DNA of 50,239 nucleotides from NCBI GenBank assembly GCA_023664685.1, contig JAMPFC010000009.1, forward strand, positions 1 to 50,239. The letters are read 5' to 3'. How positions within the stretch are numbered: the stretch's first letter is position 1; each line of letters opens with the position of its first letter. Origin of the DNA: Roseburia sp. Lineage in GTDB: Bacteria; Bacillota; Clostridia; Lachnospirales; Lachnospiraceae. Below, piece after piece: positions 18,552-49,059 of the stretch. Under the pieces are notes generated by a model that searched no databases, was not told the origin of the DNA, and worked only from the letters and a program-made list of their open reading frames with translations. The position numbers and the translations under genes were made by a program.

Positions 18552-18567
18552 AGACATGAAAAAAGTG
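18552..18567 (+). repeat. left 16-bp direct repeat, candidate left edge of the ICE
   Basis: AGACATGAAAAAAGTG, identical to 49044-49059. Upstream GTTGAAA is also shared with small gaps. No gene of the conjugative element lies to its left. Confidence 0.5.
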
Positions 18568-18582
18568 GGTAAGTTTTATAAT

Positions 18583-18680
18583 GAAGTTGTGAAAAGCAAA
18601 TAGTCCTTTGCAACTTCTCAATTAATTATTAAAAAAAGAAGTTATGAAGAGTTTAAATGACTTTTCATAACTTCTTTTTT
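18583..18680 (+). terminator. two consecutive hairpins, the second terminator-like
   Basis: Hairpin one pairs GAAGTTG (18583-18589) with CAACTTC (18611-18617). Hairpin two pairs GAAGTTATGAA (18638-18648) with TTCATAACTTC (18664-18674), flanked by an A-run and followed by TTTTTT, so it could terminate in both directions. It probably insulates the element from flanking transcription. The rest of the gap between 18194 and 18742 holds only the palindromes and the direct repeat. Confidence 0.6.
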
Positions 18681-18742
18681 ATTTGCAAAGTATATTTTGA
18701 AAGAAGAGTAAAAGGATTTGGTTCGAGAGAGAGGTTGATGGA

Positions 18743-18859
18743 ATGGATTTACTTAATGGAATCATAGAGCTTTGGAATACGGAAGAAATCCGTGCTTTTG
18801 CCATATTGGTGTATATCGCCGGCACTGTGAATGTTATCAGATATATATTTAAGAGGTAA
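18743..18859 (+). CDS. 38-residue hypothetical protein
   Basis: Short reading frame starting MDLLNGIIELWNTEEIRAF, with a moderately hydrophobic centre (AFAILVYIAGTVNVI) and a basic end. GAGAGAGG precedes the start. It could be a small membrane protein at the left edge of the element, or a chance frame. I do not recognise it. Confidence 0.35.
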   Translation: MDLLNGIIELWNTEEIRAFAILVYIAGTVNVIRYIFKR

Positions 18860-18911
18860 TACGGTAACTGTTTGTTCCAATCTTTTGTAGATTGATAACA
18901 TAAATACCTTC

Positions 18912-18965
18912 ATCCCACTACGACATCGGTTGTGATAAAAGGGACTTCAAATGTCCCGGTGGGAT
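18912..18965 (+). promoter_or_regulatory. structured leader before the HTH gene
   Basis: ATCCCAC (18912-18918) pairs with GTGGGAT (18959-18965), closing an internal GGGAC/GTCCC hairpin (18941-18945 with 18953-18957). TTTATTTT follows. The arrangement sits 30 bp before the next gene and could act as an attenuator. Confidence 0.45.
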
Positions 18966-18994
18966 TTATTTTAAATAGAAAGGTGGTGTTAAGA

Positions 18995-19201
18995 ATGGCA
19001 AAAAGGACGAAAACTCCATATCATCATACGACGTTCAAAGACCGTGTGCTGATAGAAAAACTGATTCAAGACAATATACCGACTTCCGGAATTGCTCTCA
19101 TTATTGGCAAGCACAAAAACTCAATATCTATGGAGATTGCTTATAGTGGTGCAGATCGGAAGTCGTATTCTGCCTTAAACGCACAACTCCGTATTACATA
19201 A
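18995..19201 (+). CDS. IS30-like stand-alone HTH protein
   Basis: Small protein of 68 residues from ATG 18995, behind AAAGGTGG. It consists almost only of a helix-turn-helix like that at the N-terminus of IS30-family transposases: FKDRVLIEKLI, then IALIIGKHKNSISMEI. The same pattern opens the full-length transposase at the other end of the element (YEDRLIFEKML, IAKRLHIHKNTVTNEI). No catalytic domain follows; the next gene begins 15 bp later. It may be a regulator derived from a transposase DNA-binding domain, or a remnant. Its place at the start of the element's gene string favours a regulatory role, but that is inference. Confidence 0.6.
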   Translation: MAKRTKTPYHHTTFKDRVLIEKLIQDNIPTSGIALIIGKHKNSISMEIAYSGADRKSYSALNAQLRIT

Positions 19202-19216
19202 GAAAGGAATGATGAA

Positions 19217-19789
19217 ATGTACAAATTATGTTTTGTAGAAGCACTGATTCCTTTAAAAAATTTTTATGCAATCCGGCAGAATTGTGTAATTGAAGGGGAA
19301 TTATGTGCTACGGGAAATAAAAAGTATGTCATTAAAAAAGGCATTCCGCATCATGTTGCACCATATTCACATTTGGAAAATGCAGAAAAGGTATTGGAGA
19401 CAAAAGAAAATATGATTCGTTATCAGCATGTAGATAATTCTTATTACATTAAAGAATGGTTTATTCTGAATGATAAAGATAATAATACTGTGGCGATAAC
19501 GGAAAATTATAGGTTGATTTCTGAAAAAGGCAATTACAAACCAGAAGAAGTCCGTGCGATGAAACAGTTGTTAGAACATATGGGGTTTTATCAGCGGTTG
19601 TCTACGATTATTGCTTATGAGAAATACGGATATCTTGTTCTGGGTATGAATGAAAAGACGTTCAAGTCAGAGATTCAATATGAAGATGAGCGTCAGGTAG
19701 TGACATGTAATGTGGATTCACTTGAAATCAAAGGAACACCAAAAACTTTAAAAAATGAAAAAAGGAAGGAGACAATCAATAATGAATAA
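19217..19789 (+). CDS. hypothetical protein upstream of ssb
   Basis: Protein of 190 residues that I do not recognise. It has mixed alpha/beta character, no signal peptide, no membrane segment and no clear motif. AAGAAAGGAATG precedes the start. Its end overlaps the ssb start by 8 bp, so the two are translationally linked. Position suggests an accessory of the replication/SSB block of the mobile element. Confidence 0.6.
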   Translation: MYKLCFVEALIPLKNFYAIRQNCVIEGELCATGNKKYVIKKGIPHHVAPYSHLENAEKVLETKENMIRYQHVDNSYYIKEWFILNDKDNNTVAITENYRLISEKGNYKPEEVRAMKQLLEHMGFYQRLSTIIAYEKYGYLVLGMNEKTFKSEIQYEDERQVVTCNVDSLEIKGTPKTLKNEKRKETINNE

Positions 19790-20198
19790 AGTGATTTTAT
19801 TGGGAAATTTAACACGTGATCCGGAGGTTCGTTACACGCAGGGCGAAAACTCTATGGCAATAGCGAATTTCACATTAGCAGTAAATCGTAGGTATTTCAG
19901 GCAGGGGGATGCTGATTGTGACTTTTTTAACTGTACTGCTTTTGGAAAGCAGGCAGAATTTGTTGAAAAATATTTTAATCAGGGTTCACGGATGCTGCTT
20001 ACCGGACGCATCCAGAATAATAATTATACGAATAAGAAAGGGGAGAAGGTTTATAGTGTTCAGATCATGGCGGAAGATGTTGAATTTGGTTCGACAAAAG
20101 GGAGTTCTACCCCTAGTGACAAAAATGTTAATAGGGGTATCGAGGATGATTTTACCAATATCCCAGATGATACCCTTCCCGAACTTCCGTTTAATTAA
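19782..20198 (+). CDS. ssb: single-stranded DNA-binding protein
   Basis: Element-encoded SSB of 138 residues. The OB-fold begins MNKVILLGNLTRDPEVRYT and continues with IANFTLAVNRRYF, FFNCTAFGKQAEFVEKYF and LLTGRIQNNNYTNKKGEKVYS. The tail is shorter than in chromosomal SSBs and ends DDTLPELPFN, a variant of the acidic DDDIPF tip that recruits partners. It probably protects the transferred single strand after conjugation and serves plasmid-like replication. The start ATG 19782 follows AAGGAGG. Confidence 0.95.
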   Translation: MNKVILLGNLTRDPEVRYTQGENSMAIANFTLAVNRRYFRQGDADCDFFNCTAFGKQAEFVEKYFNQGSRMLLTGRIQNNNYTNKKGEKVYSVQIMAEDVEFGSTKGSSTPSDKNVNRGIEDDFTNIPDDTLPELPFN

Positions 20199-20216
20199 AG
20201 GAGAAGAGGTCATTGT

Positions 20217-20861
20217 ATGGGATACATAACCACGGATGAAGTCCGGGAGTATTTAGCAAACCCGAACTATATGGAACAACTTCAAAGACAATCGTTAGAG
20301 GTACGCAAGCAGATTGCGGAACTAGATGCACAACATGGCGGGATCGTGGCAGAAATCATTACTACCTCACAAGTGGGAATCTCCTATGATGATAATGAGG
20401 GAGCTTCTTCAGGAGGGAAAAAAAGGGACTTGTCCGATGTTCTGGATGTCACAAAGAAAATGATAGAGGAGCATCGAAAGGAGTATTATTGGAAATATCA
20501 GACGATACTCCGGCAGATTGAAACATGCCACCGGCTGTCGCTTGTGTATGATACTCTGGATGCAGTCACGAGAGAAGTACTAAACCGGTTGTACAAGAAA
20601 AATGAGACATGGGAGTGCATTGAATATGAGCTGCAACTGTCGCATCGGAAAGTACTAAACATACGGAGAAAGGCAATCGAAGATATCCGCTATCGGTACA
20701 ATTCCAGAATGACAAATCTGCAATTAGCGAAACAGTGTGACCGGGCAGTTTTCACGCCATCCCGAAAATTGCCAAAGGTTCAAAAAGAAATGACAAATAT
20801 CGAGGGACAGTTATCTCTGGCTGATACGCTCGAAAGAAAGGAAAAGGGTACAACTAAATGA
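20217..20861 (+). CDS. sigma-70 region 4-like regulator
   Basis: Helical protein of 214 residues. The centre (about 105-165) resembles sigma region 4/ArpU-type regulators: a spacing helix, then VTREVLNRLYKKNETWECIEYELQLSHRKVLNIRRKAIEDI in overlapping helices, which is a helix-turn-helix. The N-terminal part is coiled-coil-like (residues 18-50 and 70-100). Such proteins in phages and mobile elements activate late or transfer genes. The start follows GGAGAAGAGG. The last four bases overlap the parM start, implying coupled expression. Confidence 0.65.
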   Translation: MGYITTDEVREYLANPNYMEQLQRQSLEVRKQIAELDAQHGGIVAEIITTSQVGISYDDNEGASSGGKKRDLSDVLDVTKKMIEEHRKEYYWKYQTILRQIETCHRLSLVYDTLDAVTREVLNRLYKKNETWECIEYELQLSHRKVLNIRRKAIEDIRYRYNSRMTNLQLAKQCDRAVFTPSRKLPKVQKEMTNIEGQLSLADTLERKEKGTTK

Positions 20862-21769
20862 AAAAAGTAGGAGAAAACATAATTATCGGCATCGATCATG
20901 GCTATGGGTACATCAAAACTGCAAGTGAAAACATTATCAAAAGCGGGGTAGAGGAAATTCCAATGCGTCCGCCATTTGACGAAGACATATTTGAGGTTGG
21001 AAATCGTGTCTTTGTTGCTGGGCAGAACAGATCGGAACACATGGCAGATAAGACAGTAAATGAGGATTATTACTACTTAACATTGGTAGGGATTGCAATG
21101 GAACTGAAGGTAAATCGGATGAAGAATGCAAAGAATGTGATTCTTGCGGTTGGTTTACCGTATTCGTTCTTTTCGGCACAAAAGGAATCATTCCGTGCTT
21201 ATCTCATGAAAAAAAAGAGCCTGAATTTTTCTTATGAGGGCGAAAAGTACCATGTGGAGCTGAAAGATGTAAAGGTGTATCCGCAGGGGCTTCCAGTACT
21301 GGCAATGATTATGAACCAGTACCGGGATAAGACGGTATCAATCGCTGACATTGGCTCCCGGACGATAGATGTAATCACTTACCGCAGAGGAAAACCGTTT
21401 TATGATATGTGCTTTTCCATTGACAAGAAGGGAACTCTTGACTGGATAGATGGGATTGAAAAATACTATCTGTCAAAGTATCAGGAAAAAATCGAGGAAG
21501 AGGATATTCAATGCATTTTTCAGAACCAGAAGACGAGCGTTTCCAAGAACCAGACGCAGTATGTAAAGGACTTGATTAAATACTACGTGAAGGATGTTAT
21601 GAAACTGTTGGAAAGCAAAATTCCAAATACGCTTGTTTTATGCGGTGGCGGTGCTACGGTGGCAGCAAATTATTACAATACCGGAAATAAAAGCATCATA
21701 GTCAAAGAAGACATTTTCTGTAATGCGAAAGGATATGAGCTTTTGGCTTACAATAGCATGAAGAAATAA
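20858..21769 (+). CDS. parM: ParM/StbA-type actin-like segregation ATPase
   Basis: Actin-fold protein of 303 residues. Visible nucleotide-binding signatures are the phosphate-1 loop IGIDHGYGYIKTA near residue 9, phosphate-2 SIADIGSRTIDVITYRRG near residue 160 and the adenosine motif LVLCGGGATVAANYY near residue 265. ParM polymers push plasmid copies apart when bound to ParR on a centromere. A ParR-like small protein lies two genes downstream, and a repeat array that could be the centromere begins 5 bp after the stop. This partition type in an integrated element implies an extrachromosomal, replicating stage. Confidence 0.85.
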   Translation: MKKVGENIIIGIDHGYGYIKTASENIIKSGVEEIPMRPPFDEDIFEVGNRVFVAGQNRSEHMADKTVNEDYYYLTLVGIAMELKVNRMKNAKNVILAVGLPYSFFSAQKESFRAYLMKKKSLNFSYEGEKYHVELKDVKVYPQGLPVLAMIMNQYRDKTVSIADIGSRTIDVITYRRGKPFYDMCFSIDKKGTLDWIDGIEKYYLSKYQEKIEEEDIQCIFQNQKTSVSKNQTQYVKDLIKYYVKDVMKLLESKIPNTLVLCGGGATVAANYYNTGNKSIIVKEDIFCNAKGYELLAYNSMKK

Positions 21770-21773
21770 AAAA

Positions 21774-21889
21774 TACGGAATATATACGGAAAAGTAGTTA
21801 AATTCCGTAAAAATTCCGTAAAAAAGTTTCTCGGATATTCCGTAAAGAATACGGAATATGACAATAAATACCGTAACATTTACGGAAAA
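21774..21889. repeat. TTACGGAA repeat array 1 (origin or centromere candidate)
   Basis: Eight copies of TACGGAA or its reverse complement TTCCGTA (some with one change) lie near 21774, 21785, 21803, 21814, 21839, 21848, 21868 and 21881, in both orientations, directly before the rep gene. This fits iterons for the replication protein, or a parC-type centromere. The same motif forms a larger array at 41182-41488. Confidence 0.8.
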
Positions 21890-21907
21890 GAAACGGAGAA
21901 GAAGGGC

Positions 21908-22981
21908 ATGGACTATTTAACAACTGGAAATATCATTGTTGATGAGGTTTCCAAAATCAATTTCAGCGGGGATATTACGCCCCGGATATGGCGGAAAACA
22001 ATCACGAAAGAAAATGGAAAGCCTTATGCACTGGCAAGGGACATTTTATCTGATTTTGTGTACTGGTACCGTGCCATTGAAGAGCCGGACGAAAAGACGG
22101 GAGAAATCCGTCTGAAAAAGAAATTTCGTGATGATCTGCTTTATAAATCTTATGAGCAGTTATGTGAAGAGTTCGGGGAAAGCAAACGTGTCATTCGTGA
22201 CGTGCTGAAACGTCTGGAGGATATTGGAGTAATCAAACGCCATTTCCGTACGGTTACTGCAAAGAGCGGGATGAAGATGAATAATGTCATGTACATAGAG
22301 GTGGTTCCATCGGTACTGTATGAGCTGACTTATCCGGAAAAATCGGCTGACATCGTGGATTTTCCGCAGGAGAAAAGTGGAGAAACAACGGAAAATAGGG
22401 ATTCGTTACCACCTATTGACGAAAATGTCAATAGGGTAGTCACGAAAATGTTACCACGTAATCCAGAGAATACTACAGAGATAATTAATAATTATAATAC
22501 ATCCCATCCATCTATCCGCAGGGATACAAAACCACAAGGAGAACTCCGGATGGATGGGACAAGAAATGCAGATAAGGGCTGCATTGCCAGAAGCGGCGAG
22601 CCTTACTCTCTGGAGAAGATCAAGGAATGGTATGACTATGATTCCTTGTGCCTGATGAAGCCGGAGTTTCGTCAGGATATTGACTGCGTTATCAATCTTC
22701 TTTACGACACGCTGAATACAACCCGCAGGACAATCCGGGTGTTGGGAGAGGAAAAGCCGAAAGACGTAGTAATCTCACGACTGCTGAAACTGGATTCTAT
22801 GGATTTGTTTTATGCAATCGAGCAGTATCAGAACCAGACAACGAGAATAAGGCATCAGCAGTCGTATCTTCTGACTGTTCTGTATCAGGCAAAAGGGCAG
22901 TCGCATCTGGATATCGGCAATCAGGTAAAGTATCATGCAGCAAAGCGGAAAGGAGAGCAGGAATATCATGGAGAAGAGTAA
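21908..22981 (+). CDS. replication initiation-type protein with DUF6017 C-terminus
   Basis: Protein of 357 residues. The N-terminal third contains a winged-helix-like segment (YEQLCEEFGESKRVIRDVLKRLEDIGVIKRHF, in overlapping helices) as in replication initiators. The C-terminal part (about 230-335) matches DUF6017, usually fused to RepA-type initiators in Tn1549-like elements: KIKEWYDYDSL, then DVVISRLLKLDSMDLFYAIEQYQ and YLLTVLYQAKG. The middle is a poorly conserved linker. A repeat array sits immediately upstream, as expected for an initiator with iterons. The gene overlaps the ParR-like gene by 14 bp. Replication function is inferred from family and context. Confidence 0.72.
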   Translation: MDYLTTGNIIVDEVSKINFSGDITPRIWRKTITKENGKPYALARDILSDFVYWYRAIEEPDEKTGEIRLKKKFRDDLLYKSYEQLCEEFGESKRVIRDVLKRLEDIGVIKRHFRTVTAKSGMKMNNVMYIEVVPSVLYELTYPEKSADIVDFPQEKSGETTENRDSLPPIDENVNRVVTKMLPRNPENTTEIINNYNTSHPSIRRDTKPQGELRMDGTRNADKGCIARSGEPYSLEKIKEWYDYDSLCLMKPEFRQDIDCVINLLYDTLNTTRRTIRVLGEEKPKDVVISRLLKLDSMDLFYAIEQYQNQTTRIRHQQSYLLTVLYQAKGQSHLDIGNQVKYHAAKRKGEQEYHGEE

Positions 22982-23354
22982 AAAGGAACAAGACCGGAAA
23001 AGACTGGAAATATGTCTGAATCTGAAAAATAAGGAGGACAAAGAGGTGTGGGATATTCTCCGGAAAAAGAAAAATATCAACGCATATTTCCGTCAGGCGG
23101 TTTTGTATCAGGCAAAAGGACAGCGTCTGGATTTGCAGACTGCACAAGATATCCGGGAAACGATCGAGCGAAGCATAAAGGAAGTGCTTTCGTCCGGTTC
23201 TGCTCCGGTAGTGCCAGAGAAAAAAGAATTTTTCCCAGAGCCGATGCAGGGAGAAGAACCGACTGCGGATGATGGGGCATCGGAGGACGCAGTGCAGGAA
23301 ACGGATGAGGACATCCTTGATTTAAGAGGGTTTGAAGATTTTTTGGGAGAATAA
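22968..23354 (+). CDS. ParR-like small DNA-binding protein
   Basis: Protein of 128 residues from ATG 22968, with AAAGGAG upstream, overlapping the rep gene. The N-terminus is basic and looks like a ribbon-helix-helix (RLEICLNLKNKEDKEVWDIL, then INAYFRQAVLYQAKGQ). The C-terminus is acidic and disordered, ending LDLRGFEDFLGE. A short basic DNA-binding domain with an acidic tail is the layout of ParR adaptors, whose C-terminus contacts ParM. It shares YQAKGQ with the end of the Rep protein. The call depends mainly on parM being present. Confidence 0.6.
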   Translation: MEKSKKEQDRKRLEICLNLKNKEDKEVWDILRKKKNINAYFRQAVLYQAKGQRLDLQTAQDIRETIERSIKEVLSSGSAPVVPEKKEFFPEPMQGEEPTADDGASEDAVQETDEDILDLRGFEDFLGE

Positions 23355-23381
23355 AGAAAAATATAGACCAGATAAGTGATT

Positions 23382-23478: not shown

Positions 23479-23495
23479 AAGAGGGGGTGTCAATA

Positions 23496-25366: not shown

Positions 25367-28300
25367 ATGAAAAGCAGAAAAAGTTACATAAAGCGGTTTG
25401 TAGCATATGCAGTCATGTTTGCGATGATTCTCGGCATCTGTCCACAAATCCAGAAGCAGCACGCAGAGGCAGCAACGACATATGCTGCATCTCTTTCCCA
25501 GTTGGGAAAGCTTGGAGCATTTAAGGCAGGAAGCAAGGGGAAAGGGGGCAATGACAACTGGTGGAAAATGACAGTTAATGGTAAAGCCTCTTTTTGTCTA
25601 AATCTTGGTCTGACGTGCCACTCCGGCGATACCTACGAGGAAAAGAGCAGTGGTACATACAAGAGTCATGGTTCAGGGGACAAAGGACCGTGGTATGCCT
25701 GCATCGGCTACTGGTACGATCAGGTGCAGAACCGGAAAAACAAGGCGTTTGCTATGGCACAAGCCCTTTGTTGGACAATCGAGGAAGAAGGAACATCAAA
25801 ATCAAATCTGGTAAAAGCGATCCAGACCGTGCAGACAAATACGGGGTGGTTCAGCAGCAAGTCGGCAGATGATATGTATACTACGATCTTTCAGTATCTG
25901 GACGCTGACAAAGCTGAAGTTCAGGCAGATTACACAAGGTATGAGTATACCGGAAGCCAGAGCGGAAAGCGTCAGGTTTTAATGAATTTAGGCGGCGTTC
26001 CAACTCCGCCACAATGGAAAACTTACAGTACATCCAAACGCTACCGCCAGAGAATCACTCTGTATAAGAAAGATGAGGACGGAAACCCGCTTGCTAATGT
26101 GGAGTTCTCTTTAACGGTAGACAACGTGGATGAGTGTTATTACATCCTCTGCAATGGTGCCGGAGAAGCTACGGAAGAAGCCGACTTTGGCTCTGCCAAC
26201 ACGGACTTCTTTACAACGACCAATACCACAGATGCGGGCGGAAGACTGTACTACATCTTTGCGTTCCGTTTGCAGACCAAGGATTACGGGTATGTGGATG
26301 ATACCACGCTTGCCACACTGGATGATGATGCAAAGAAAGCGGTAAAGGCAGAAATGGACGAGGACGATGTTTCCTACGGTTCTGGTCTTACGCAGGCGGA
26401 AGCCCAAGCACTGGCAGCGGATGACTTAAACCAGCAGTTCGCCAAGATTTCCAATACTTTTTTCATTCAGGAAACGAATACAAATAATGGAAATCTTGTG
26501 GTAGATACGGATTATGGCAGCGGGAAAACAATTACGATCGATTCCGCACATTCATGGTTTAGGGACGATGCCAACGATTACTGGGAGGATAAACACTGGC
26601 AGGATGAAGGAAACGGAAATGCTTGTGATTATAGTAAAAACATCATTGAGAATGTAACAAATGATTACAAGCGGGTTTCTTATAGGATAAAGAAAAATGA
26701 TGATTACTCAACTGATAAGAAAGCACATGGCAACGCTACCCTGCAGGAAGCAAAATACCGCCTGTATTCTGATCCGGCTTGTACCGTTCCGGCAACGGTG
26801 TATACGGATGCAGAAGGAACATATTCTGCGGAATGCCCGGTTCTGGTAACGGACGCTGATGGCGGGTTTACCACGCCATATCTGCGGAGCGGTATCACGT
26901 ACTACCTGAAAGAAGTTGAGCCATCCAGAGGTTATCTTTTAAATGGAAATGTAATTCCGTTCCTTGCGGATGCATCCGACCGGGCAGAGAAAGTTACACC
27001 GAACAAACAAACCATTGAGGCAACGGAAACTCCGATACTTGGAAAGATTCAGATGTTTAAAGTGGAGGATGATAACATATCCGGCGGTTCCAGTTTAGGG
27101 AAATGGGAAGTGGGGTCACAGTTTAAAATATACTTGCAGTCTGATGGAAGTTATGAAGCCAGTGATGATTATGAGAGAGATATTATCACGGTAAACTCGG
27201 AAGGCGTAGCACTTTCCAAAGATTTGTATTATGGTGCGTACATTGTAGAGCAGATTAGTACTGGCGGAGCCGATACAGAAATGCTGGCACCATTTCCAGT
27301 CATTATTGAGCATCCAAATGTAACAAAAACATTTGTGGGAATTGATCCGATTTTCCGTGCCTATCTCCGTGTCGTGAAGAAAGATGGCAATACGGAAAAA
27401 TCAGTTCTGAAATCCGGTACTACGTACCAGATTTACAAAGTCAAGGATTCGGGAGAAGAGGAACTTGTCACACAAAGCACCAGTAATGGAAACAAGGTGG
27501 AGACCTGCGATACATGGCGGACGGACGAATCCGGAATCATAATGACCTATAAGGCATTACCATCCGGTAAATACCGTATTTATGAGACGGAAAGTGCGAC
27601 GGGGCTTCACGTTACGAAAGATTACATTGAGGTGGATATCAACAGTAAGGCACAGAATTATGTCGTGGAAAGCGATGGAATTGAGACGACATATACAGTT
27701 GTCGAAGTGGACTATGTAAATGACGAGACACATGGAAGGCTTTCCCTGAAAAAGACCGGGGAGCAGTTAAGCGGATTTACCAGAACTGCAACTACGGAAA
27801 CTGGAAGCATGGAACTGTCCATTGACACGCTCTTCCCGATAACATCCGCTGCCGGAAGCGACAGTTTCTTTTCTATGGTAAATGGGAAATTTATCTGGGA
27901 AGAGACAAGCGTAAGGGGAGCAGTCTTTGAAGTTTATGCAGAAGAAAATATCGAAACACAAGATGGACAGGGCGATTTCTGGTTTAAGAAAGGCGATCTG
28001 GCTGCCACTGTCACAACGGGCGAAGGGGCAGAATTTACATCAAAATGTGGCGGTATTACTTCTTATGAGACAGATGAGGATGGAATCGTAACCATTGACC
28101 TTCCTCTGGGAAAATACAAAATCATAGAAAAGGAGACTTTGTATGGTTATGTACTGCCGGAGAAAAATGAATGGACGGTTGAATTTACATGGGACAATAA
28201 GGATGAGGCGTTTGTTTATGACAGTTTGGGGACAACAGATGAAAACGGTCTGCTTACTGTAGATAATAAACGGGCAAAGCCTGCACTTTCCATAACAAAA

Positions 28301-30599: not shown

Positions 30600-30753
30600 A
30601 GAAACGGTAAAAAGCAGCGAGACCTTAGTCAGTAATTCCGTTGAGGAATTGAAGCATCTGGTAGGGAAATTGTTAAAAGACGACCATAACCGTATTGTTG
30701 TTACCGTCTCCATGTCTGAAGGGAAAGGAGAGGATGAGAATGGGAAATCTTGA
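30583..30753 (+). CDS. 56-residue hypothetical protein
   Basis: Small hydrophilic protein, beginning MKLQNKETVKSSETLVSNS and overlapping both the sortase end and the RadC start. It has an amphipathic helix around VEELKHLVGKLLKDD and a beta-like RIVVTVSM. AAAGGA precedes the ATG. I do not recognise the family; tight packing between real genes supports expression. Confidence 0.55.
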   Translation: MKLQNKETVKSSETLVSNSVEELKHLVGKLLKDDHNRIVVTVSMSEGKGEDENGKS

Positions 30754-32534: not shown

Positions 32535-32550
32535 AGAGAGGAGCAGAGGA

Positions 32551-32955: not shown

Positions 32956-33103
32956 TGGACAGAAAAATGAAATGATAATGCAGAAATTCATGCAGGAGAA
33001 TGGTGTTACGTTCGGTGTTCCAGATGAGTTTCGGGACGAGACACCGGATGAAAGCGTGATATTTGATGAGTGGGAAGGGGATGGGACAAATGGCAAAGAG
33101 TAA
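32948..33103 (+). CDS. 51-residue acidic hypothetical protein
   Basis: Reads MDNGQKNEMIMQKFMQENG and continues with an acidic Asp/Glu-rich end (FDEWEGDGTNGKE). It overlaps the preceding gene by 8 bp and the next by 14 bp. AAAGGAGAG lies upstream. No family recognised. Confidence 0.45.
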   Translation: MDNGQKNEMIMQKFMQENGVTFGVPDEFRDETPDESVIFDEWEGDGTNGKE

Positions 33104-41187: not shown

Positions 41188-41488
41188 AAGTACGGAAAAA
41201 TTCCGTACTTTTATAAGGTATAAGAGGGTATTAGGGACACTTCCCTAACAAGACTGCATTTTGTATATACAAAATGCGTGTCTTGCCATTCAAAACCAAT
41301 ACAAATATACCGTACTTTTTACGGAAAAAAGGGAAAATTTCCGTAGGAATTACGGAAAAAGAAAGACAAATTACGGAAAAATACCGTAAAACAGTTGCTA
41401 AAGTTACGGAAGAGTTACGGAAAATATAGATAGATTACGGACTAATTCCGTAAAAGGCAGTATCAGGATTTCGTAAAAATTACGGAAT
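41182..41488. repeat. TTACGGAA repeat array 2
   Basis: About fourteen copies of TTACGGAA/TTCCGTAA-type units surround and follow the candidate oriT, in both orientations. They lie near 41191, 41201, 41309, 41320, 41340, 41351, 41371, 41383, 41404, 41415, 41435, 41446, 41471 (degenerate) and 41480. The first two form a perfect palindrome with 16-bp arms (41182-41197 and 41201-41216). The motif is that of the array before rep. Confidence 0.8.
41231..41290 (+). other. candidate origin of transfer (oriT)
   Basis: Contains a perfect 22-bp palindrome GCATTTTGTAT-ATACAAAATGC (41256-41277) with outer AAGAC/GTCTT arms, 220 bp upstream of mobC and the relaxase. A smaller TTAGGGA/TCCCTAA hairpin precedes it (41231-41249). 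Just 3' of the palindrome, TGTCTTGCC resembles the MOBP nic consensus YATCCTG/Y, placing a possible nick near 41285/41286. The nick is inference. Confidence 0.55.
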
Positions 41489-41506
41489 ATATGGGAGAAT
41501 ATGTTT

Positions 41507-41839
41507 ATGAGAGCAGAAAAACATACAGAACAGTTGTTAGTCCGTCTGACGAAAAGAGAAAAGGAAGCTCTTTGTCAACAGGCAAAGGCAAATGGGCAAA
41601 ATGTCAGTTCTTATGTGAGGATGATTCTTGCACGTCCCCCGGACGTAACCAGAAAGGAGTTTGAGGAAGTAAACCTCCGATTGGTTTATGAAATAAATAA
41701 GATTGGTGTCAATATTAACCAGATAGCAAAAAAATATAATGAACACCGTCTTACAAAGGCGAGCAGGGATGTGATGGATAAGATGGATGAAATCCGTAAG
41801 CTGCTGAATGAGGTCATGCGTACATTCCACCCAGATTAG
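41507..41839 (+). CDS. mobC: MobC-type relaxosome accessory protein
   Basis: Small DNA-binding protein of 110 residues from ATG 41507; ATG 41501 is in frame but only three bases from GGGAG. It has the MobC/RHH pattern: a strand QLLVRLTKREKEAL, then AKANGQNVSSYVRMIL. The conserved C-terminal segment is YEINKIGVNINQIAKKYNE. MobC proteins bind oriT and help the relaxase melt and nick it. The relaxase gene begins 13 bp downstream. Confidence 0.88.
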   Translation: MRAEKHTEQLLVRLTKREKEALCQQAKANGQNVSSYVRMILARPPDVTRKEFEEVNLRLVYEINKIGVNINQIAKKYNEHRLTKASRDVMDKMDEIRKLLNEVMRTFHPD

Positions 41840-41852
41840 AAAGGAGGTTCTT

Positions 41853-43157
41853 ATGTCAATCATAATTAAGATGGGACGACCGATTGAATCCGAATCGCAT
41901 TTGAAAAAAGCGATTGATTATGTCATGCAGGAGTGGAAGACAGAAGGACGGGCATACAGTAATAGCGGTATTACGCCAGTAGAGATAAAGGACACCTTTT
42001 TCCTGACTAAAAAAGTATACCCTTCTCATGGAAAAAGGCAGGGATATCACTGGAAGTTTTCCTTTTCCAAAGATGAGATGATTTCCCATGATGAGGCTCT
42101 TGAGTTTATCAGAGAATGGGCGGAAGAATATCTGGGGGAAGAGTATGACTTTGTTGTAGCAGAACATAGTGACCGGGAATTAACCCATATGCATCTTATT
42201 TTTAATTCTGTCCGGCGGGGCGGTGGAAAGTACCATTATGGAAAAGATGAGTGGGATAAAGTGATAAAACCACTGACAAACCGTATATGTGACAAGTATC
42301 ATACCGGGCATGTCAAAGAAAAAGATAAGGATTTGGACTATGCTCCGGAAAGGAACTGGAAAGCAGAGGTGGAAGAAGCGATAGATGAATGCATCAAAGC
42401 CAGTAAGTCTTATTCGGATTTTAAGATTCGGCTGCAACGTGATTTTCACTATTCTCTTCGGGAGGGGGTATCGAAAGATTATGGCGTGTACCTGTCACTA
42501 AAACCGCCGGGGAAAGCAAAAGCAATACGATCATACAGACTGTCTCCCGGATATATGCCGGAAGATATTGAGCGGAAAATCACGGAAAGCTTTTTAAAGG
42601 AGATTCCAGAGACAGTCAGGATAAATCTGGAACGGAAAGAGAACACGAAAGCCCTCTTTTGTGTGATATTCCGTCAGGAGAAGGAGCTTTTACGGAGTGG
42701 GTATTTTCGTCAGAGACACATTCCATATAAAGACCTTTCTGCATATCAGCAATACTTTGTGAGGAGAATGTTGTCGGCAAGAAGATTATATCATCGAACC
42801 GGGACAACATTGAAAGGTCATGAGCAGAGTGTCCGTGCGATTCACAGTATGATGCATGAGGTTGGGGAACTGTATAAATATAATATCCGGACAGAACATA
42901 GGTTATCGGAAGAAATATTTGAACTGAAGAAACAGATTACCTTTACAGAACACCGTCTTTCCGAAGGCAAGATACCGCCAGAGCAGGAAGCAGATGTGTC
43001 AAACCAAGTGAAGACATGGAAAAAGGAGCTGACAGACTTAAAAAGACTGGAGAAACAGAAAATTCCGGAAGATTATAAAAAAGAAATGCCAGAACCAGAA
43101 CAAAGAGAATCACTGACTGTTAGAAAGGAGAAAACACATGACGGACGAACAAAGTAA
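41853..43157 (+). CDS. MOBP-type relaxase
   Basis: DNA relaxase of 434 residues that nicks oriT and pilots the strand into the recipient. ATG 41853 follows AAAGGAGG. The N-terminal domain has the HUH-like motif in VAEHSDRELTHMHLIFNSV, corresponding to the HxDxxHxH region of MOBP enzymes. The catalytic Tyr is probably Tyr25 in AIDYVMQ, or nearby. The C-terminal third is helical and coiled-coil-like (about 330-420). It overlaps the next gene by 20 bp. Its neighbours mobC and PcfB/VirD4 complete a relaxosome and coupling set. Confidence 0.88.
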   Translation: MSIIIKMGRPIESESHLKKAIDYVMQEWKTEGRAYSNSGITPVEIKDTFFLTKKVYPSHGKRQGYHWKFSFSKDEMISHDEALEFIREWAEEYLGEEYDFVVAEHSDRELTHMHLIFNSVRRGGGKYHYGKDEWDKVIKPLTNRICDKYHTGHVKEKDKDLDYAPERNWKAEVEEAIDECIKASKSYSDFKIRLQRDFHYSLREGVSKDYGVYLSLKPPGKAKAIRSYRLSPGYMPEDIERKITESFLKEIPETVRINLERKENTKALFCVIFRQEKELLRSGYFRQRHIPYKDLSAYQQYFVRRMLSARRLYHRTGTTLKGHEQSVRAIHSMMHEVGELYKYNIRTEHRLSEEIFELKKQITFTEHRLSEGKIPPEQEADVSNQVKTWKKELTDLKRLEKQKIPEDYKKEMPEPEQRESLTVRKEKTHDGRTK

Positions 43158-44016: not shown

Positions 44017-44026
44017 GGATTAGCAT

Positions 44027-45457
44027 ATGAGTGAAGAAGTACAAACTATGGTACAAGTATTGGAACTGACTGGAAGGGGATTATCCGGAGTAATGAAGGG
44101 AATCCGTCTATCTGCAAAGGGAGCATCAAAAGGGGCGGAGCTGATAGATTTGAAATGGATGCAGCTGAAGATGAAACTCCATTATGCCAGTACCGGAACA
44201 CACGATACAATGCTGCTGAAGGATTTGGAAAAACTTACAGGCGGTCAGTATGATATACTGAATATCCCATTTGAGGATGAAAAGTCTTTAATCGGCTTTT
44301 ATGACAGGTTAAAAAAGGTAAGCGTTTCCTTTGCAGAACTGCCGGACTTAAATCTAGGCGACGGATATACCCAGATTGCTTATAATCCGCAGGACGCTGC
44401 CCGCATAAAAACGGTTGTGGAATATTATAAAGATAAACTGGAGGTGGAAGCAGCTGAAATCAGTCTGGAGCAGTATGAGAGAATGGGAGACGAAAAAGCA
44501 AGAGCAGTATTAAATGAACTAGCCGAAAAAGGATATCAGCAGGAAACGCAAATAAACCTTTTGCAGAAGATACGTGAACGCAACAAAGATAATAATTATG
44601 TTCCTATCAGTATTGATATTGAAACATTACTGAAAAAAGAGGATGCAGATAGTTATATCTGTTATGTGCCGGGAACAAAACATAAGCAGACGGTAACAAT
44701 AAAAAAGGAAGACTGTCTGTTGTTTGATGACAGGAAGGTTATTTATACCCACTTACGGAAAGATGATCCGGCAACCAAGAACATTAAGGGAAATTACAAT
44801 AAAGTAGTTGCTAAGTACAAGAAAATGTCAGAAAGGACAAGGCTAGATGATATGGAGATTTTGCCGGATTTTACGAAGGGGCAGGATCAGACGGGTTCTG
44901 CCCCGGAACATGAGCCATTACCCTTTGGCAACAGAAGTGATGCTAGGGGTATTTCTGAAATGGAAGATTTGGAGAAGACATTATTGCAACGTCCTAAAAA
45001 CCAGTCAGAAGAAAAGGTTTATAAAGCATTATCAAATGAACATGTTAAGGGAAAGGCAGGCAGTCCAGATTATCTTCCAGTTACCATCAATCTGGAGAAA
45101 CAACTCGTGGCAGAAAGCCCGAACTTGTATATTGCCAAAATTCCGGATGAGGGAACTCCGGAACTAGGGGAGGAAACAACCCGCCTAATTTCCATTCCGA
45201 AGGAAGATGCAGTAATCAGTAAAGATGGCAGACAAGCACAGATTTTTCTTGATAAGAAAGGAAAAACAGAAGTTTCTCTTCATGATGTGAAAAGCGGAGG
45301 AAGGAAGTCTGACGTTTTGATGAGCAATGAGGAAATTGCTAAAACTTTTGCCGGAAAGAATCCGGGCATTGAAGAAAATAAAACGATGCATAAAAGTCTG
45401 GAGCTGATAAAAGGGAAAGTTTTAAAGAATCCAACGCAAGGAGGGAAAGTGATATGA
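44027..45457 (+). CDS. PcfB-like (DUF3801) protein with duplicated module
   Basis: Protein of 476 residues. The first 150 residues resemble DUF3801/PcfB, the relaxosome-to-VirD4 adaptor: VLELTGRGLSGVMKGI near the start, then KDLEKLTGGQYDILNIPFEDEKSL and a final FAELPDLN segment. The remainder is unusual. A module of about 60 residues occurs twice, once near 190-250 (YVPISIDIETLLKK, VTIKKEDCLLFDDRKVIYTHL) and again near 348-420 (YLPVTINLEKQLVA, ISIPKEDAVISKDGRQAQIFL). It overlaps the virD4 gene by four bases, consistent with an adaptor role. Confidence 0.68.
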   Translation: MSEEVQTMVQVLELTGRGLSGVMKGIRLSAKGASKGAELIDLKWMQLKMKLHYASTGTHDTMLLKDLEKLTGGQYDILNIPFEDEKSLIGFYDRLKKVSVSFAELPDLNLGDGYTQIAYNPQDAARIKTVVEYYKDKLEVEAAEISLEQYERMGDEKARAVLNELAEKGYQQETQINLLQKIRERNKDNNYVPISIDIETLLKKEDADSYICYVPGTKHKQTVTIKKEDCLLFDDRKVIYTHLRKDDPATKNIKGNYNKVVAKYKKMSERTRLDDMEILPDFTKGQDQTGSAPEHEPLPFGNRSDARGISEMEDLEKTLLQRPKNQSEEKVYKALSNEHVKGKAGSPDYLPVTINLEKQLVAESPNLYIAKIPDEGTPELGEETTRLISIPKEDAVISKDGRQAQIFLDKKGKTEVSLHDVKSGGRKSDVLMSNEEIAKTFAGKNPGIEENKTMHKSLELIKGKVLKNPTQGGKVI

Positions 45458-47670
45458 GTAACGTAGTAAGGAGCATTACAGATATCAGGAAGTTAAGGCT
45501 ACGGAATTTTCTAATTATCTGTTTTGTTTTTCTTCCGGCATGGCTATATATGACTTACTGTGCCAGTGGATTATTTATGAGTGATGTTAAACTGGATAAC
45601 ATAAGTGTACTATATGAATGGTGTTTAAAACATCCCATGCAGTGTTATAACGAAAAGAGCATAGGAATAGTGCTTTCGGCATTACTGTTATGGGTAATTT
45701 TTGTCTTTACGCAATATGTAAAAATGAACAATACGCTTATGCATGGACAAGAATATGGCTCTGCTAAATGGGGAAGCATCCCGGCTTTTAACGCAAAATA
45801 TGGAACGGAGAAAGAGGAAGATAACAAAATACTGTCCAGAAATATACGTTTCCGGTATGATGAATCAACACTCCGGAATGGTAATATATTTGTGGTTGGC
45901 GGTTCAGGGGCAGGGAAGACTTCCTTTTTTCTTACGCCAAATCTATTACAGTGCCACGGTTCCAATGTATATACTGATCCAAAAGGAAGTGTGTTAGAAG
46001 AGCTTGGGACATTTCTGGAGAAGCAGAAAGATACGATTGTCTGTGTCATTAATCTTTGTGAAATGGAAAAGAGCATGCATATCAATCCGTTTTTGTTTTT
46101 ACGAACCCAGATGGATGTCAGTAAGCTGATTTCCAATCTGATCCAGAATACAAACAGTGAAAATATTCAAAATTCCACTGCCGATCCATTTTGGGAAAAA
46201 GCAGAAATCGTATTTTTGGAGAGTCTTTTCTTTTATGTCTGGTTACAGTGTCCACAGACGTTTGTTAATGAAAAAGGAAAGACTATCCGTCTGGAAAAAA
46301 ATATGAGTTCAGTATTATATCTGCTAGAGGAGGCGGAGATAAAATCCGCAGATGTACCTACCGGACTGGATAGACGGATGTCAGCGTTGGAGACGGAGCA
46401 GCCCGACCATCCGGCAGTTAAATCTTATAAGAGGTTCCGGAGCGGAGCTGCTGATACGAAACGGAGCGTTCTTATGACAGTCAATGCAAGAATGCAGCCT
46501 TTTGATAATCCGGAACTCTTGGATATTTTTTCTGGAAATGATATTCCATTGAATGAAGTCGGAATAGGAAAAGATGGTGATGGGAAGACAAAAATAAATT
46601 TATTTATCGTGATTCCGGATAATGACACTACTTACAATTTTGTTCCGGGAATGATTTATACACTGTTACTGGAAGATTTATATTATCGGGCGAGGTTGTA
46701 TGGCGGGCGGCTCCCAATTGATGTCGGGTTTTGGCTGGATGAGTTTGCAAATACAAAAATGCCGGCAAATTTTGATAAAGTTCTTGCCACTTGTCGAAGT
46801 CGTGGTATTTATTGTGTTCCCATGCTCCAGTCCCTTGCACAGATAAAACAACTATTTAAAGACGGTGCGTGGGAAGGCGTGGTAGGAAACTGCGATACTT
46901 TTATTTATCTTGGAGGAAACGAACAAAGTACCTTTGAATATATCACGAAACTTTTGGGAAAATGGACGATTGACAAAAAAACAAGCGGGGAAAGCAGAGG
47001 TACATCTGGTTCGTACAGTGAAAATATGGATGTGCTTGGTCGTGAACTGATGATGGAATATGAGGTAAGACTTCTTCCACAGGATGAGTGTATTATATTT
47101 GTTCGCGGCGAAGAACCGCTCCGGGACAAAAAATGGTTTCCGTGGGAATATGAGGAATATAAAAAGGCAAAATCTCTTGGAGTTTATCAAAAGCCAGATG
47201 CCGATCAGTCTGCTGATGAGGAAATTTGCAGAATTTTAAATGATGAAAGCATGGACTATTTGAAGAAACTCACAGAGAAAGGGGAAAATATAGATATTTA
47301 TAGTATTGATGCTCTGGAATTTATGAAAATGGACTTGGTTCAGTTAGAAAGACAACTGGCTCATGGTTCAAGAATAATCGAACAAGATATATCTCTGGAA
47401 CACCTTCAGGAAATTTGTTTGCGGGAAAAGGAAGAAGCGAGGCAACAACTGTACCATGAGTTTTTACAAAATTATGACAGTATGACGTTGTTTGAAATAT
47501 ATTCTTCTGATTTTATCAGTACTACAAGGAAGGATGTGATACAGGAATTGAGACAACACCAGATACCAGAGACAGACATAAAACTTATTATTCATCCAGA
47601 TTATACGGAAGAGGAAATTTTACAAAAGAAAAATGCATATCTTACGTTTCAAGAGTTGTCTCCGGTATAG
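45454..47670 (+). CDS. VirD4/TraG-type coupling protein
   Basis: Hexameric coupling ATPase of 738 residues that links the relaxosome to the channel. Two N-terminal membrane helices (about 18-42 and 68-90) precede the motor. Walker A is VVGGSGAGKTSFFLTP near 150, followed by YTDPKGSVLEELG. Walker B is VGFWLDEFANTK near 428. TCRSRGIYCVPMLQSLAQIKQLF is typical of TraG/VirD4. The C-terminal 170 residues are an acidic helical extension. The order pcfB-virD4 matches PcfB/PcfC pairs. Confidence 0.95.
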   Translation: MSNVVRSITDIRKLRLRNFLIICFVFLPAWLYMTYCASGLFMSDVKLDNISVLYEWCLKHPMQCYNEKSIGIVLSALLLWVIFVFTQYVKMNNTLMHGQEYGSAKWGSIPAFNAKYGTEKEEDNKILSRNIRFRYDESTLRNGNIFVVGGSGAGKTSFFLTPNLLQCHGSNVYTDPKGSVLEELGTFLEKQKDTIVCVINLCEMEKSMHINPFLFLRTQMDVSKLISNLIQNTNSENIQNSTADPFWEKAEIVFLESLFFYVWLQCPQTFVNEKGKTIRLEKNMSSVLYLLEEAEIKSADVPTGLDRRMSALETEQPDHPAVKSYKRFRSGAADTKRSVLMTVNARMQPFDNPELLDIFSGNDIPLNEVGIGKDGDGKTKINLFIVIPDNDTTYNFVPGMIYTLLLEDLYYRARLYGGRLPIDVGFWLDEFANTKMPANFDKVLATCRSRGIYCVPMLQSLAQIKQLFKDGAWEGVVGNCDTFIYLGGNEQSTFEYITKLLGKWTIDKKTSGESRGTSGSYSENMDVLGRELMMEYEVRLLPQDECIIFVRGEEPLRDKKWFPWEYEEYKKAKSLGVYQKPDADQSADEEICRILNDESMDYLKKLTEKGENIDIYSIDALEFMKMDLVQLERQLAHGSRIIEQDISLEHLQEICLREKEEARQQLYHEFLQNYDSMTLFEIYSSDFISTTRKDVIQELRQHQIPETDIKLIIHPDYTEEEILQKKNAYLTFQELSPV

Positions 47671-47752
47671 GATTGATGTTTCTATGCCGGGGCAGTTTTC
47701 CCAAACAGAGAGAAGGGAAAACAAGAATTTTGTTGAAAAAAATCTGTTTTTG

Positions 47753-47782
47753 TTGCGGTACTTAAAATGTGTGTGGTATACT
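47753..47782 (+). promoter_or_regulatory. candidate promoter of the IS30-like transposase
   Basis: TTGCGG (47753-47758) and TATACT (47777-47782) are 18 bp apart, 75 bp before the start. A GTTTTCCC/GGGAAAAC hairpin (47695-47722) lies upstream and may end the virD4 transcript, though without a T-run. Confidence 0.5.
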
Positions 47783-47856
47783 CTTAAAAAATGTGGACAC
47801 AATATGAGATTAGAAAGTTTATATGTGAATTTTTAGAGTAAGAAAAGGAGCGTAAG

Positions 47857-48897
47857 ATGAAAGGGTATCGACAACTTAAATATGAAGACCGCCTTATTTT
47901 TGAAAAGATGTTAAGAGCCGGAATTAAAAAAGGCGAGATAGCAAAGCGGTTACATATTCATAAAAATACGGTAACAAATGAAATCAAGCGGGGACGTTAT
48001 CTTCATCGGAATACCGATTATACGGAAGAGTATCGTTATTCTGCTGAACTTGCAGAGAAACATTATCAGGAAAATGTTAAAATGCGAGGGACGCAGTTGA
48101 AAATAGCGAATGATTATGAGTATGCAGAGTATATTGAAAATCGGATAGCGGAGGATGATTTCTCCCCTTCGGCAGTTTTGGGAGAATTAGAGGCAACCGG
48201 GCGGGATAAGGAGTACAAAACGAAAATATGTGTTACTACATTATACAGTTACATTGATAAGGGGGTGTTTTTCAAGCTGACAAATAAAGACCTTCCGGTT
48301 AAGGGCAAAAGAAAACGGAAGTATCATAAAGTAAAACGCCAGAAAAGAGCAAGTGCGGGAAAAAGCATAACTGAACGTCCGGCGGAGGCAGAAGATCGGG
48401 GAGAGTTTGGACACTGGGAAATGGATACTGTTATCGGAAAGCAGGAAGTGAGTAAAAATGCACTCCTTGTCCTGACGGAACGGAAGACAAGAAAAGAGAT
48501 TCTTTTTAAACTGCCAACCCATGAAGCTAAAGAGGTCGTAAAGAAACTGGATTTTTTGGAAATGGTTTGGAAAGATAAGTTTTCCAAAGTATTTAAAAGC
48601 ATTACAGTAGATAATGGCAGTGAGTTCGCTTATAATGAAGAAATGGAGACATCTATTTTCGGCGGTAAGCGAACAAACATTTTTTATTGTCATGCATACA
48701 GTAGTTGGGAACGTGGCTCGAATGAGAACCAGAACAAACTGGTAAGACGAAAGATTCCTAAAGGGAGTAACTTTGATAACAAGACTGCCGAGGACATATC
48801 TAATATTGAGGATTGGATAAACCGCTATCCCAGAAAGATATTTGGTTTCCATACTTCGGCAGAGTTGTTTGAGAAAGAAGTTGCTATGATTACATAA
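47857..48897 (+). CDS. IS30-family DDE transposase
   Basis: Intact transposase of 346 residues behind AAAAGGAGCG. The N-terminal HTH (residues 5-45) contains EIAKRLHIHKNTVTNEIKRG. The catalytic core has Asp190 in FGHWEMDTVIG, Asp252 in ITVDNGSEFAY and Glu285 in SSWERGSNENQN, giving the D-33-E spacing of IS30. It ends NRYPRKIFGFHTSAELF. Placed at the extreme right of the conjugative gene string, with no other recombinase in the element, it may move the whole element. The alternative is a separate IS that landed there; I could not define its inverted repeats with confidence. Confidence 0.92.
   Translation: MKGYRQLKYEDRLIFEKMLRAGIKKGEIAKRLHIHKNTVTNEIKRGRYLHRNTDYTEEYRYSAELAEKHYQENVKMRGTQLKIANDYEYAEYIENRIAEDDFSPSAVLGELEATGRDKEYKTKICVTTLYSYIDKGVFFKLTNKDLPVKGKRKRKYHKVKRQKRASAGKSITERPAEAEDRGEFGHWEMDTVIGKQEVSKNALLVLTERKTRKEILFKLPTHEAKEVVKKLDFLEMVWKDKFSKVFKSITVDNGSEFAYNEEMETSIFGGKRTNIFYCHAYSSWERGSNENQNKLVRRKIPKGSNFDNKTAEDISNIEDWINRYPRKIFGFHTSAELFEKEVAMIT
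47857..48897 (+). mobile_element. IS30-like transposition module (ends undefined)
   Basis: Coordinates are those of the transposase gene only. Possible ends lie within 47690-47850 and 48950-49043. A partial match (TGTTTTTGT-TGC, inverted near 48970) is too short to accept as a terminal repeat. Confidence 0.4.
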
Positions 48898-48921
48898 AGA
48901 GGGCGGACTATAGGGAATGAA

Positions 48922-48945
48922 AGACTGGCAGTAGGCAGTCTTTTT
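48922..48945 (+). terminator. terminator of the transposase gene
   Basis: AGACTG (48922-48927) pairs with CAGTCT (48936-48941), followed by TTTT. It lies 25 bp after the stop. The remaining intergenic sequence to rpoB holds the right direct repeat and the rpoB promoter. Confidence 0.7.
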
Positions 48946-49043
48946 CTGCTACATGCAATTAGTAAATATGCACAAAAACAACACAACTACACTGTGTAAA
49001 ATGACGAAATGAAAAAATGTCACAAAAAAAGGTTGAAATTTTT

Positions 49044-49059
49044 AGACATGAAAAAAGTG
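49044..49059 (+). repeat. right 16-bp direct repeat next to the rpoB promoter
   Basis: AGACATGAAAAAAGTG, identical to 18552-18567. It ends 11 bp before the -35 box of rpoB. A degenerate relative (ATGAAAAAATGTCAC) lies about 40 bp upstream. Confidence 0.5.

Follow-up and report, generated by a model that had tools for sequence, protein, structure and literature searches.

A 30.5-kb conjugative element in Roseburia sp. predicted to integrate upstream of promoters by an IS30-family transposase

The 50,239-bp window analyzed here, one entire contig (JAMPFC010000009.1) of a Roseburia sp. draft genome with 131 contigs (completeness 98.75, contamination 1.9), very probably carries a 30.5-kb integrative and conjugative element whose integration is carried out by an IS30-family transposase of a promoter-targeting group, as judged by the target rule described below. 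The element occupies positions 18568-49044 (30,477 bp), is flanked by 15-bp direct repeats found in a direct-repeat search blind to promoters, and holds a relaxase, a coupling protein, a VirB4 and an integration gene within defined ends, as expected of an integrative and conjugative element. The duplication on its right side ends 11 bp before the -35 hexamer of the rpoB promoter. The features that define its ends and target are as follows:

18553..18567, no strand: target-site duplication, left copy GACATGAAAAAAGTG (direct-repeat search)
18568..18592, + strand: left terminus GGTAAGTTT-TATAAT-GAAGTTGTGA (end comparison)
18583..18682, + strand: pair of left-end hairpins with a T-run after the second, a possible terminator of read-in transcription (folding)
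47857..48897, + strand: IS30-family DDE transposase, 346 aa, final gene of the element (HTH_38 and rve domains; NCBIfam; PHROGs)
49020..49044, + strand: right terminus TCACAAAAAAAGG-TTGAAA-TTTTTA (end comparison)
49045..49059, no strand: target-site duplication, right copy GACATGAAAAAAGTG (direct-repeat search)
49071..49099, + strand: target promoter, with -35 TTGACA at 49071-49076, a 17-bp spacer and -10 TAAGAT at 49094-49099
49194..50239, + strand: rpoB, truncated by the contig end (TIGR02013, 5.4e-97)

The repeat as found is 16 bases long (AGACATGAAAAAAGTG, 18552-18567 and 49044-49059), and its outer edges coincide with the limits that a preliminary description of this DNA had given to the element. 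The left terminus contains a -10-like hexamer (TATAAT, 18577-18582) and the inner inverted-repeat core TTGTGA (18587-18592), while the right terminus contains a -35-like hexamer (49033-49038) and the inner core TCACAA (49020-49025). The -10-like hexamer had the same offset in 17 of the 18 left ends compared and was shifted by one base in L148 (labels beginning with G, C and L are our handles for genomes, contigs and loci). The left ends of the relatives in G018 and G025 were alike, with GG(T/A)AAGTTTTATAATG, and the right ends were alike across the backbone relatives, with AAAGGTTGA(A/C)ATTTT(T/C)A. The rpoB locus of relatives was considered as an empty site and judged weak, because it keeps just the promoter-side portion of the duplication.

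Both ends could be located for 19 elements, nine by the direct-repeat search (9 of 16 regions), nine by a left-end motif search (20 loci, with 11 matches in the right place and orientation as judged by eye) and one by a further repeat search, in which L148 and L172 (the same as G036) were kept and L108, L139, L163, L171, and L181 were discarded, their ends not matching. The raw repeats measured 14-17 bp, mostly 15 bp after setting aside the bases shared with the terminus. In 16 of these 19 elements the promoter-side copy of the duplication ended 11 bp before a TTG-type -35 hexamer, with L136, L138, and L140 fitting this distance only after one or two shared bases were assigned to the left terminus; the exceptions were L124 (11 bp, with a poor hexamer), L144 (12 bp), and L129 (14 bp). 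The 11-bp stretch before the -35 box was A-rich (58-84% A at positions -10 to -6) and in this resembles a proximal UP element.

The spacing was also measured across a larger sample, from the right-end-like hexamer to the downstream promoter within 500 bp after the transposase, using the best 80 of 470 transposase relatives in named genomes, of which three were too short and 77 were usable. A promoter was located at 37-40 bp in 43 of the 77 loci, among which near-identical transposases occur although their printed flanks differ, and any other distance between 8 and 150 bp held at most two loci. By comparison, 0.25 loci on average and two at most had that spacing in 100 dinucleotide shuffles, and none of 11 distant homologues showed it. 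Expressed from the right terminus (spacing minus 12), the -35 hexamer lies at 25-28 bp. Downstream genes were scanned in 14 of the 43 loci, picked as recognizable, and the first open reading frames (ORFs) of at least 90 codons included infC (two loci), nusG, rpsJ, rimP, pheS, rpsB, typA, hrcA, and rplU (two loci). Additionally, at least 9 of the 43 loci had tRNA genes no further than 1,500 bp from the transposase.

The same backbone and gene order with the transposase as last gene, the arrangement set out in the preliminary description, recurred at different insertion sites in G018, in G025 and, up to its contig end, in G024, with transposases 91, 71, and 91% identical to that of the window, respectively. 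From our reading of the sequence, the G018 element is presumably inserted before secD, while G024 shows the right end only, before infC (locus L107), and the G025 element occupies a different site. An empty site for the G018 element was found in three genomes that carry a single copy of the repeat, with 97, 91, and 87% identity over 460 bases of joined flanks, one base of the repeat being changed in the 87% genome.

Matches to the transposase at E ≤ 1e-20 were obtained in 28 of 145 genomes, the window's own counted, in a protein search. Two elements of G073 (G073a and G073b), which we take to be prophages from their ORFs, carry it as the last gene, measure ~34 kb each by their repeats and show similarity to the window in the transposase alone (tblastn at 1e-4), with the same end layout, duplication and target rule. 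As read from the sequence, a 16S rRNA promoter and infC would follow their insertion points; on contig G073:C1 one is found at ~1.71-1.74 Mb and the other spans the contig's two ends. Moreover, the window's genome contains a second conjugative element (C109; L049, L080, L081) that follows the same insertion rule, with a transposase at 48% and a VirD4 24% identical to the window's, and tblastn also found similarity in ArdC, SpaA, sortase and hydrolase. From our reading, C109 presumably has ParA/ParB-like ORFs and lies before pheS. Among the 80 loci, 49 had, upstream of the transposase, a match to one or more ORFs of the two G073 prophages, four matched conjugation genes (L105-L107, L184), one had an ArdC-like match (L131), and 26 matched nothing, many of them with short upstream sequence. 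Because the transposase is shared by the same backbone in three genomes, by a second conjugative type and by prophages, these relatives indicate that it determines the ends and the target.

Some smaller elements and neighboring loci were also observed. An element of ~6.5 kb in G025:C21 (L093-L094) combines the transposase with ORFs read as ParA/ParB-like, and L148 is a 10.7-kb element; both obey the same rule. G036:C2 carries at ~184561-186660 (L172) a unit the size of an insertion sequence (~2 kb), with a 15-bp repeat, the 11-bp rule and an atypical left end. In G502:C1 (24250-24950, L322) a right end stands before a tRNA-Ser gene, and ~400 bp further on comes a left-end motif belonging to another member of the family.

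The transposase was assigned to NCBIfam transpos_IS30 (NF033563; 230 bits against a cut-off of 80), and an alignment of 12 sequences showed invariant residues that include D190, D252, E285, and E290. Its structure model had a mean predicted local distance difference test (pLDDT) score of 64, and the Foldseek matches to IstA and retroviral integrases therefore show a DDE/RNase-H-like fold and nothing finer. The helix-turn-helix (HTH) at residues 7-46 weakly resembles sigma-70 factors (E 0.0005, under the cut-off). The transposase tree (97 sequences) placed the window type on one branch (support 100) and the second conjugative type together with the 6.5-kb G025 element on another (support 99), not adjacent to it, and L184 fell among phage-type rows; the tree was built by a quick method with many weak forks, omits six duplicates (the same genomes reached twice) and has an outgroup that is not on one clean side of a branch.

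Joined ends were recognized by eye in phage records that run uncut through the integration site (Lagaffe, nd12, nd4, Dulem virus 34, and MT835543), with a junction promoter whose spacer was 17 bp in four records and 16 bp in Lagaffe. Among the best 80 of 160 IMG/VR loci, the small HTH gene was found within 1,200 bp after the transposase in eight, six of which have -35 and -10 hexamers 17 bp apart according to a script; L264 shows such a pair by eye, and L230 shows none. Two of these loci, L249 and L250, appear to be near copies. Compared with the integrated ends, these phage-relative junctions leave ~2 bp between the ends (e.g., TTTTTA-TA-GATAAG). The corresponding predicted junction promoters would be TTGAAA-17-TATAAT in the window and TTGACA-17-TATAAT in G025. 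The small HTH_38 protein encoded beyond this joint (18995..19201) is similar to the N-terminal DNA-binding domain of the transposase, and since the first gene past the joint resembles that domain alone, its product probably regulates either the ends or the junction promoter. A leader at 18860-18980 precedes this gene and is similar in G018, with a terminator-like stem noted by eye; an Rfam scan of 16100-50239 gave zero matches at gathering thresholds.

A hairpin followed by a T-run was located behind the left end in 18 of the 18 elements folded. In a transcript entering from outside, the full hairpin forms, while a transcript starting ~7 bases past the -10 hexamer is missing some of the 5' arm and forms a weaker fold in the 15 single-hairpin types. 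A junction transcript that simply escapes the left-end terminator would fit these 15 ends, but not the three window-type ends.

Gene assignments were based on profile searches against Pfam, NCBIfam and PHROGs, and the remaining features of the element are listed below:

18995..19201, + strand: small HTH_38 protein, 68 aa from the chosen ATG (phrog_4646, 3.8e-6)
19755..20198, + strand: single-strand binding protein (SSB; PF00436)
20217..20861, + strand: transcription-regulator-like protein (phrog_36)
20858..21769, + strand: ParM-type actin (Pfam, NCBIfam; phrog_691 partition protein, 9e-37)
21774..21887, no strand: TACGGAA/TTCCGTA array, 7 copies, between parM and rep; possible iterons of an origin, or a possible centromere
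21908..22981, + strand: replication-initiator-like protein (DUF6017; phrog_270, 3.9e-9)
22935..23354, + strand: candidate ParR, ribbon-helix-helix-like (low-confidence structure model)
25367..29833, + strand: SpaA-domain surface protein with an LPXTG-anchor-like end (Pfam, NCBIfam)
29820..30599, + strand: sortase (Pfam)
30695..31327, + strand: RadC-like protein (Pfam)
32452..32955, + strand: PrgI-family protein (Pfam)
33063..35969, + strand: ArdC / zincin / MuF_C multidomain protein (Pfam)
35935..38361, + strand: VirB4-like ATPase, CD1110 family (Pfam, NCBIfam)
38358..40166, + strand: lysozyme-like / NlpC-P60 peptidoglycan hydrolase (Pfam)
41191..41487, no strand: second TACGGAA/TTCCGTA array, 10 copies, upstream of mobC; possible oriT or further partition site
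41501..41839, + strand: MobC/NikA-like accessory protein (Pfam)
41808..43157, + strand: relaxase (PF03432)
45454..47670, + strand: VirD4-like coupling protein, CD1115 family (Pfam, NCBIfam)

These searches bear out the preliminary description as to the conjugation set, the relaxase, the Rep-like protein, ParM and the transposase as last gene, as well as the lack of a tyrosine or serine recombinase, none having been found at E ≤ 0.001 among the 25 element ORFs scanned (smaller ORFs fell outside the scan). Its assignment of the relaxase to MOBP agrees with PF03432, while the NCBIfam subfamily matches (SAG1250, TraI_MobP) were far under their cut-offs. The ParR-like gene it had mentioned is plausible at 22935-23354, where the model shows a beta-alpha-alpha order at a mean pLDDT of 54 and Pfam gave zero matches; the ORF directly before parM (20217) was rejected as ParR, since it resembles a transcription regulator. 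The ORF at 33063-35969 encodes a single 968-aa protein fusing ArdC, zincin and MuF_C domains, and the ArdC part of the second conjugative element (C109) is 78% identical to it.

The plasmid-like functions point, with moderate confidence, to an excised circle that would be replicated and actively segregated. The motif TACGGAA/TTCCGTA occurs 35 times in the window, 17 of them in the two arrays (7 copies in 114 bp between parM and rep, including short tandem runs, and 10 in 297 bp before mobC), and the ORF at 21908 matches replication-initiation families; the arrays, together with the ParR candidate, would fit an origin and a centromere. Several observations weigh against the circle and its promoter. 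The circle junction was seen in phage relatives only; the array between parM and rep is present in G018 and missing from G025; and the three window-type ends hold a second complete terminator inside the predicted junction transcript, which therefore may not reach the first gene. The matches listed from the plasmid collection reach 38% identity for the transposase (20 of at least 5,000 records) and 32.5% for VirB4 (10 of 281), so that the window's element did not appear among them in extrachromosomal form. It is possible, though we hold it the less probable account, that there is no plasmid stage, with rep, parM and the arrays otherwise used or remnants and the circle a short-lived transfer intermediate. 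The weak Rep match (best 3.9e-9), the weaker ParR match and the array missing from G025 would fit this alternative, and they are set against the conservation of parM, rep, SSB and the ParR candidate as a group in G018 and G025, the RepA_N protein confirmed by profile search in the related backbone of G171, and the ParA/ParB-like ORFs read in the second conjugative type. From our reading of ORFs, the backbones of G171 and G422 presumably encode ParA/ParB as well, in G171 at the corresponding place.

The promoter rule itself has to be weighed against a number of observations. No duplication was found at the ends in 7 of the 16 regions (G024a, whose left end is beyond its contig, G067, G038, G026, G018b, G043, and G114), and no repeat in 2 of the 11 left-end motif loci (L113 and L131). 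In the spacing sample, 34 of the 77 loci failed the strict promoter test, 18 of which have a promoter-like pair near the expected place according to a looser test with no control, and in eight loci with Lagaffe-like ends (L157, L158, L161, L163, L170, L173, L174, and L179) the promoter was absent or poor. The spacing was present in 6 of 62 IMG/VR loci, and the promoter test covered the transposase-side flank only. Since the Lagaffe-like loci fail it, the promoter rule belongs to part of the family. These loci would also be expected if insertion were random or AT-seeking and selection kept only the events that spare promoters, as insertion before essential genes requires. Nevertheless, the distance to the -35 hexamer is identical to the base in 16 of 19 elements and always on the transposase side, and we consider untargeted insertion improbable, because selection for an intact promoter would tolerate a wide range of distances.

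The preliminary description had asked whether the transposase is co-inherited with virD4 and had named, as evidence against its reading, a related backbone with another integrase and no IS30 gene, or an IS30 copy inserted independently with ends of its own. Among 397 family genomes, a draw that did not contain the three transposase-bearing relatives (G018, G024, G025), VirB4 was 73% identical in G171 and G422, the next best being 43%. Both carry the same conjugation gene set as the window (VirD4 56-57% identical), with no transposase match within the stretches searched, and a serine recombinase was confirmed in G171 by profile search. A BREX-like phage-defense cluster was read between VirD4 and this recombinase in G171:C8 (L216-L217). 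In the VirD4 tree (14 rows) the window clade comprises nine rows, four of them with the transposase, and G006, which adjoins a tyrosine integrase, groups with G025 (support 99/98); no integrase was identified up to the contig end for G422, G001, and G024:C91. Strict co-inheritance is thus not supported, and backbones with other integrases do occur one step away (G171 and G006). These VirD4 relatives count against the transposase as the resident integrase; we read them otherwise, as related backbones with other integrases among which the integration module therefore appears to have been swapped, like that of TnGBS, and not as a sign that the window transposase is a passenger. The independently inserted IS30 copy was not seen: none of the repeats listed for the window lies immediately before the transposase gene, and the 30-kb element as a whole is bounded by the conserved ends that accompany this transposase clade in prophages and in the second conjugative type. 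On the same grounds it is most improbable that the transposase is a passenger insertion sequence and that another recombinase, lost or unrecognized, integrated the element, as the recombinases of G171 and G006 might suggest.

With integration assigned to the transposase, a cycle can be proposed. The transposase would join both ends into a circle with a bridge of ~2 bp, and the joined ends would form a promoter (17-bp spacer, with the right end supplying the -35 and the left end the -10 hexamer) directed into the left end, where the first gene, a stand-alone relative of the transposase DNA-binding domain, may regulate it. The circle would be replicated by the Rep-like protein, maintained by ParM and the ParR-like protein, and transferred via the relaxase and the type IV secretion apparatus. 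Reinsertion would take place 11 bp upstream of a sigma-A-type -35 box, with the transposase end facing the promoter and ~15 bp duplicated, so that 26 bp upstream of the host -35 box would be restored. Sequence comparison shows the ends, the duplication, the target rule and the empty site of one relative; that the window copy is active is our inference.

Taken together, we consider it likely that an IS30-type transposase and a small HTH partner constitute a promoter-homing module used by temperate phages, by two or more kinds of conjugative element and by smaller elements in Lachnospiraceae and neighbors, which reached the TnGBS rule independently, cuts at the edge of the RNA-polymerase footprint and has a promoter specific to the circle. 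The enzyme may read promoter-bound RNA polymerase, or the -35 box itself via its sigma-70-like HTH. If this is true, the ~15-bp duplication would cover the distal UP region, as we assume from the position of the latter, and rebuild the host promoter, while the joined-end promoter would exist in the circle alone, behind a terminator that stops read-in when the element is integrated. TnGBS is the described case of a promoter-homing conjugative element, and the occurrence of this rule with another transposase of different build, common to phages, suggests that promoter homing is a general way for large elements to land harmlessly. It also offers an explanation for a published oddity, the direct repeats that flank phage Lagaffe. 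Annotated "IS30 insertion sequences" within gut phages, it further suggests, can be integration genes belonging to the phage itself; besides, the target rule provides a simple route to the precise boundaries of these elements and makes promoter recognition by a transposase accessible to experiment.

The IS30 type is already known from ICE6013 among conjugative elements and from Lagaffe among prophages. In gut genomes, zero integrative and conjugative or integrative and mobilizable elements with a transposase and 12 prophage clusters with IS30, IS256, and IS110 transposases are given in an excerpt of PMC6907783, and neither promoter targeting nor a 15-bp duplication by an IS30-type transposase was found in the excerpts of the literature searched (including PMC8301612 and PMC11318856). 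For the Faecalibacterium phage Lagaffe, unexpected direct repeats were noted by its authors (PMC5883640, section 7). Lagaffe (transposase 51% identical) and other phages with an IS30-type transposase (phrog_4646) share with the window's element a similar junction and the small HTH gene, whereas Lagaffe is a phage and integrated loci with Lagaffe-like ends, not Lagaffe's own site, have no clear promoter at the fixed distance. Phage vB_Fpr_FP01, called lytic, encodes an IS30 transposase and, three ORFs later, a short HTH protein of the same COG (excerpt of PMC13432834), which looks like an integration module of this kind and not a stray insertion sequence.

In Staphylococcus aureus, ICE6013 is a conjugative element with an IS30-like transposase as recombinase (excerpts of PMC7913919 and PMC3942029), which has conjugation genes of the Tn916 superfamily, a MobT relaxase and many different sites (excerpt of PMC7563843). 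It resembles the present element in having an IS30-like transposase within a conjugative element, and differs in its MobT and Tn916-type functions, as compared to the PF03432 relaxase, VirB4 of CD1110, VirD4 of CD1115, rep/parM and promoter targeting found here. Its insertions reportedly show a 3-bp duplication around an AT-rich palindrome. Target duplications of 3 bp are made in the IS30 family too. IS30 itself circularizes with 2 bases between its ends, which form a junction promoter (Pjunc), makes 2-bp duplications and targets hot spots or its own ends (excerpt of PMC9333248). The present element shares with this family a transpos_IS30 enzyme, its phage relatives show a ~2-bp bridge with a junction promoter, and it differs from the family by a ~15-bp rather than a 2-3-bp duplication, by its promoter targets and by a cargo of 30 kb.

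The closest parallel is the streptococcal TnGBS family, which combines a DDE transposase as integrase with conjugation, plasmid-like replication and a circle intermediate, inserts in an oriented manner upstream of sigma-A promoters with the right end promoter-proximal (excerpts of PMC3942029 and PMC4701971), and has undergone reported exchange of its integration module (excerpt of PMC4701971). Its transposase is of the Mutator-like p-MULT3 type (PF06782), in contrast to the HTH_38, rve and transpos_IS30 matches obtained here; its direct repeats are 8-9 bp long (~15 bp here), the right terminus lies 15-17 bp from the -35 box (25-28 bp here) and the circle coupling is 6-10 bp (~2 bp in the phage relatives). 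The design parallel to TnGBS proposed in the preliminary description is supported by the shared ends, the ~15-bp duplication and the insertion upstream of promoters, and is not new in joining an IS30-type enzyme to conjugation, given ICE6013. With a DDE transposase, conjugation genes, an oriented insertion whose right end faces the promoter, and replication predicted here from genes and repeat arrays, the predicted lifestyle is TnGBS-like and achieved with an unrelated IS30-type enzyme.

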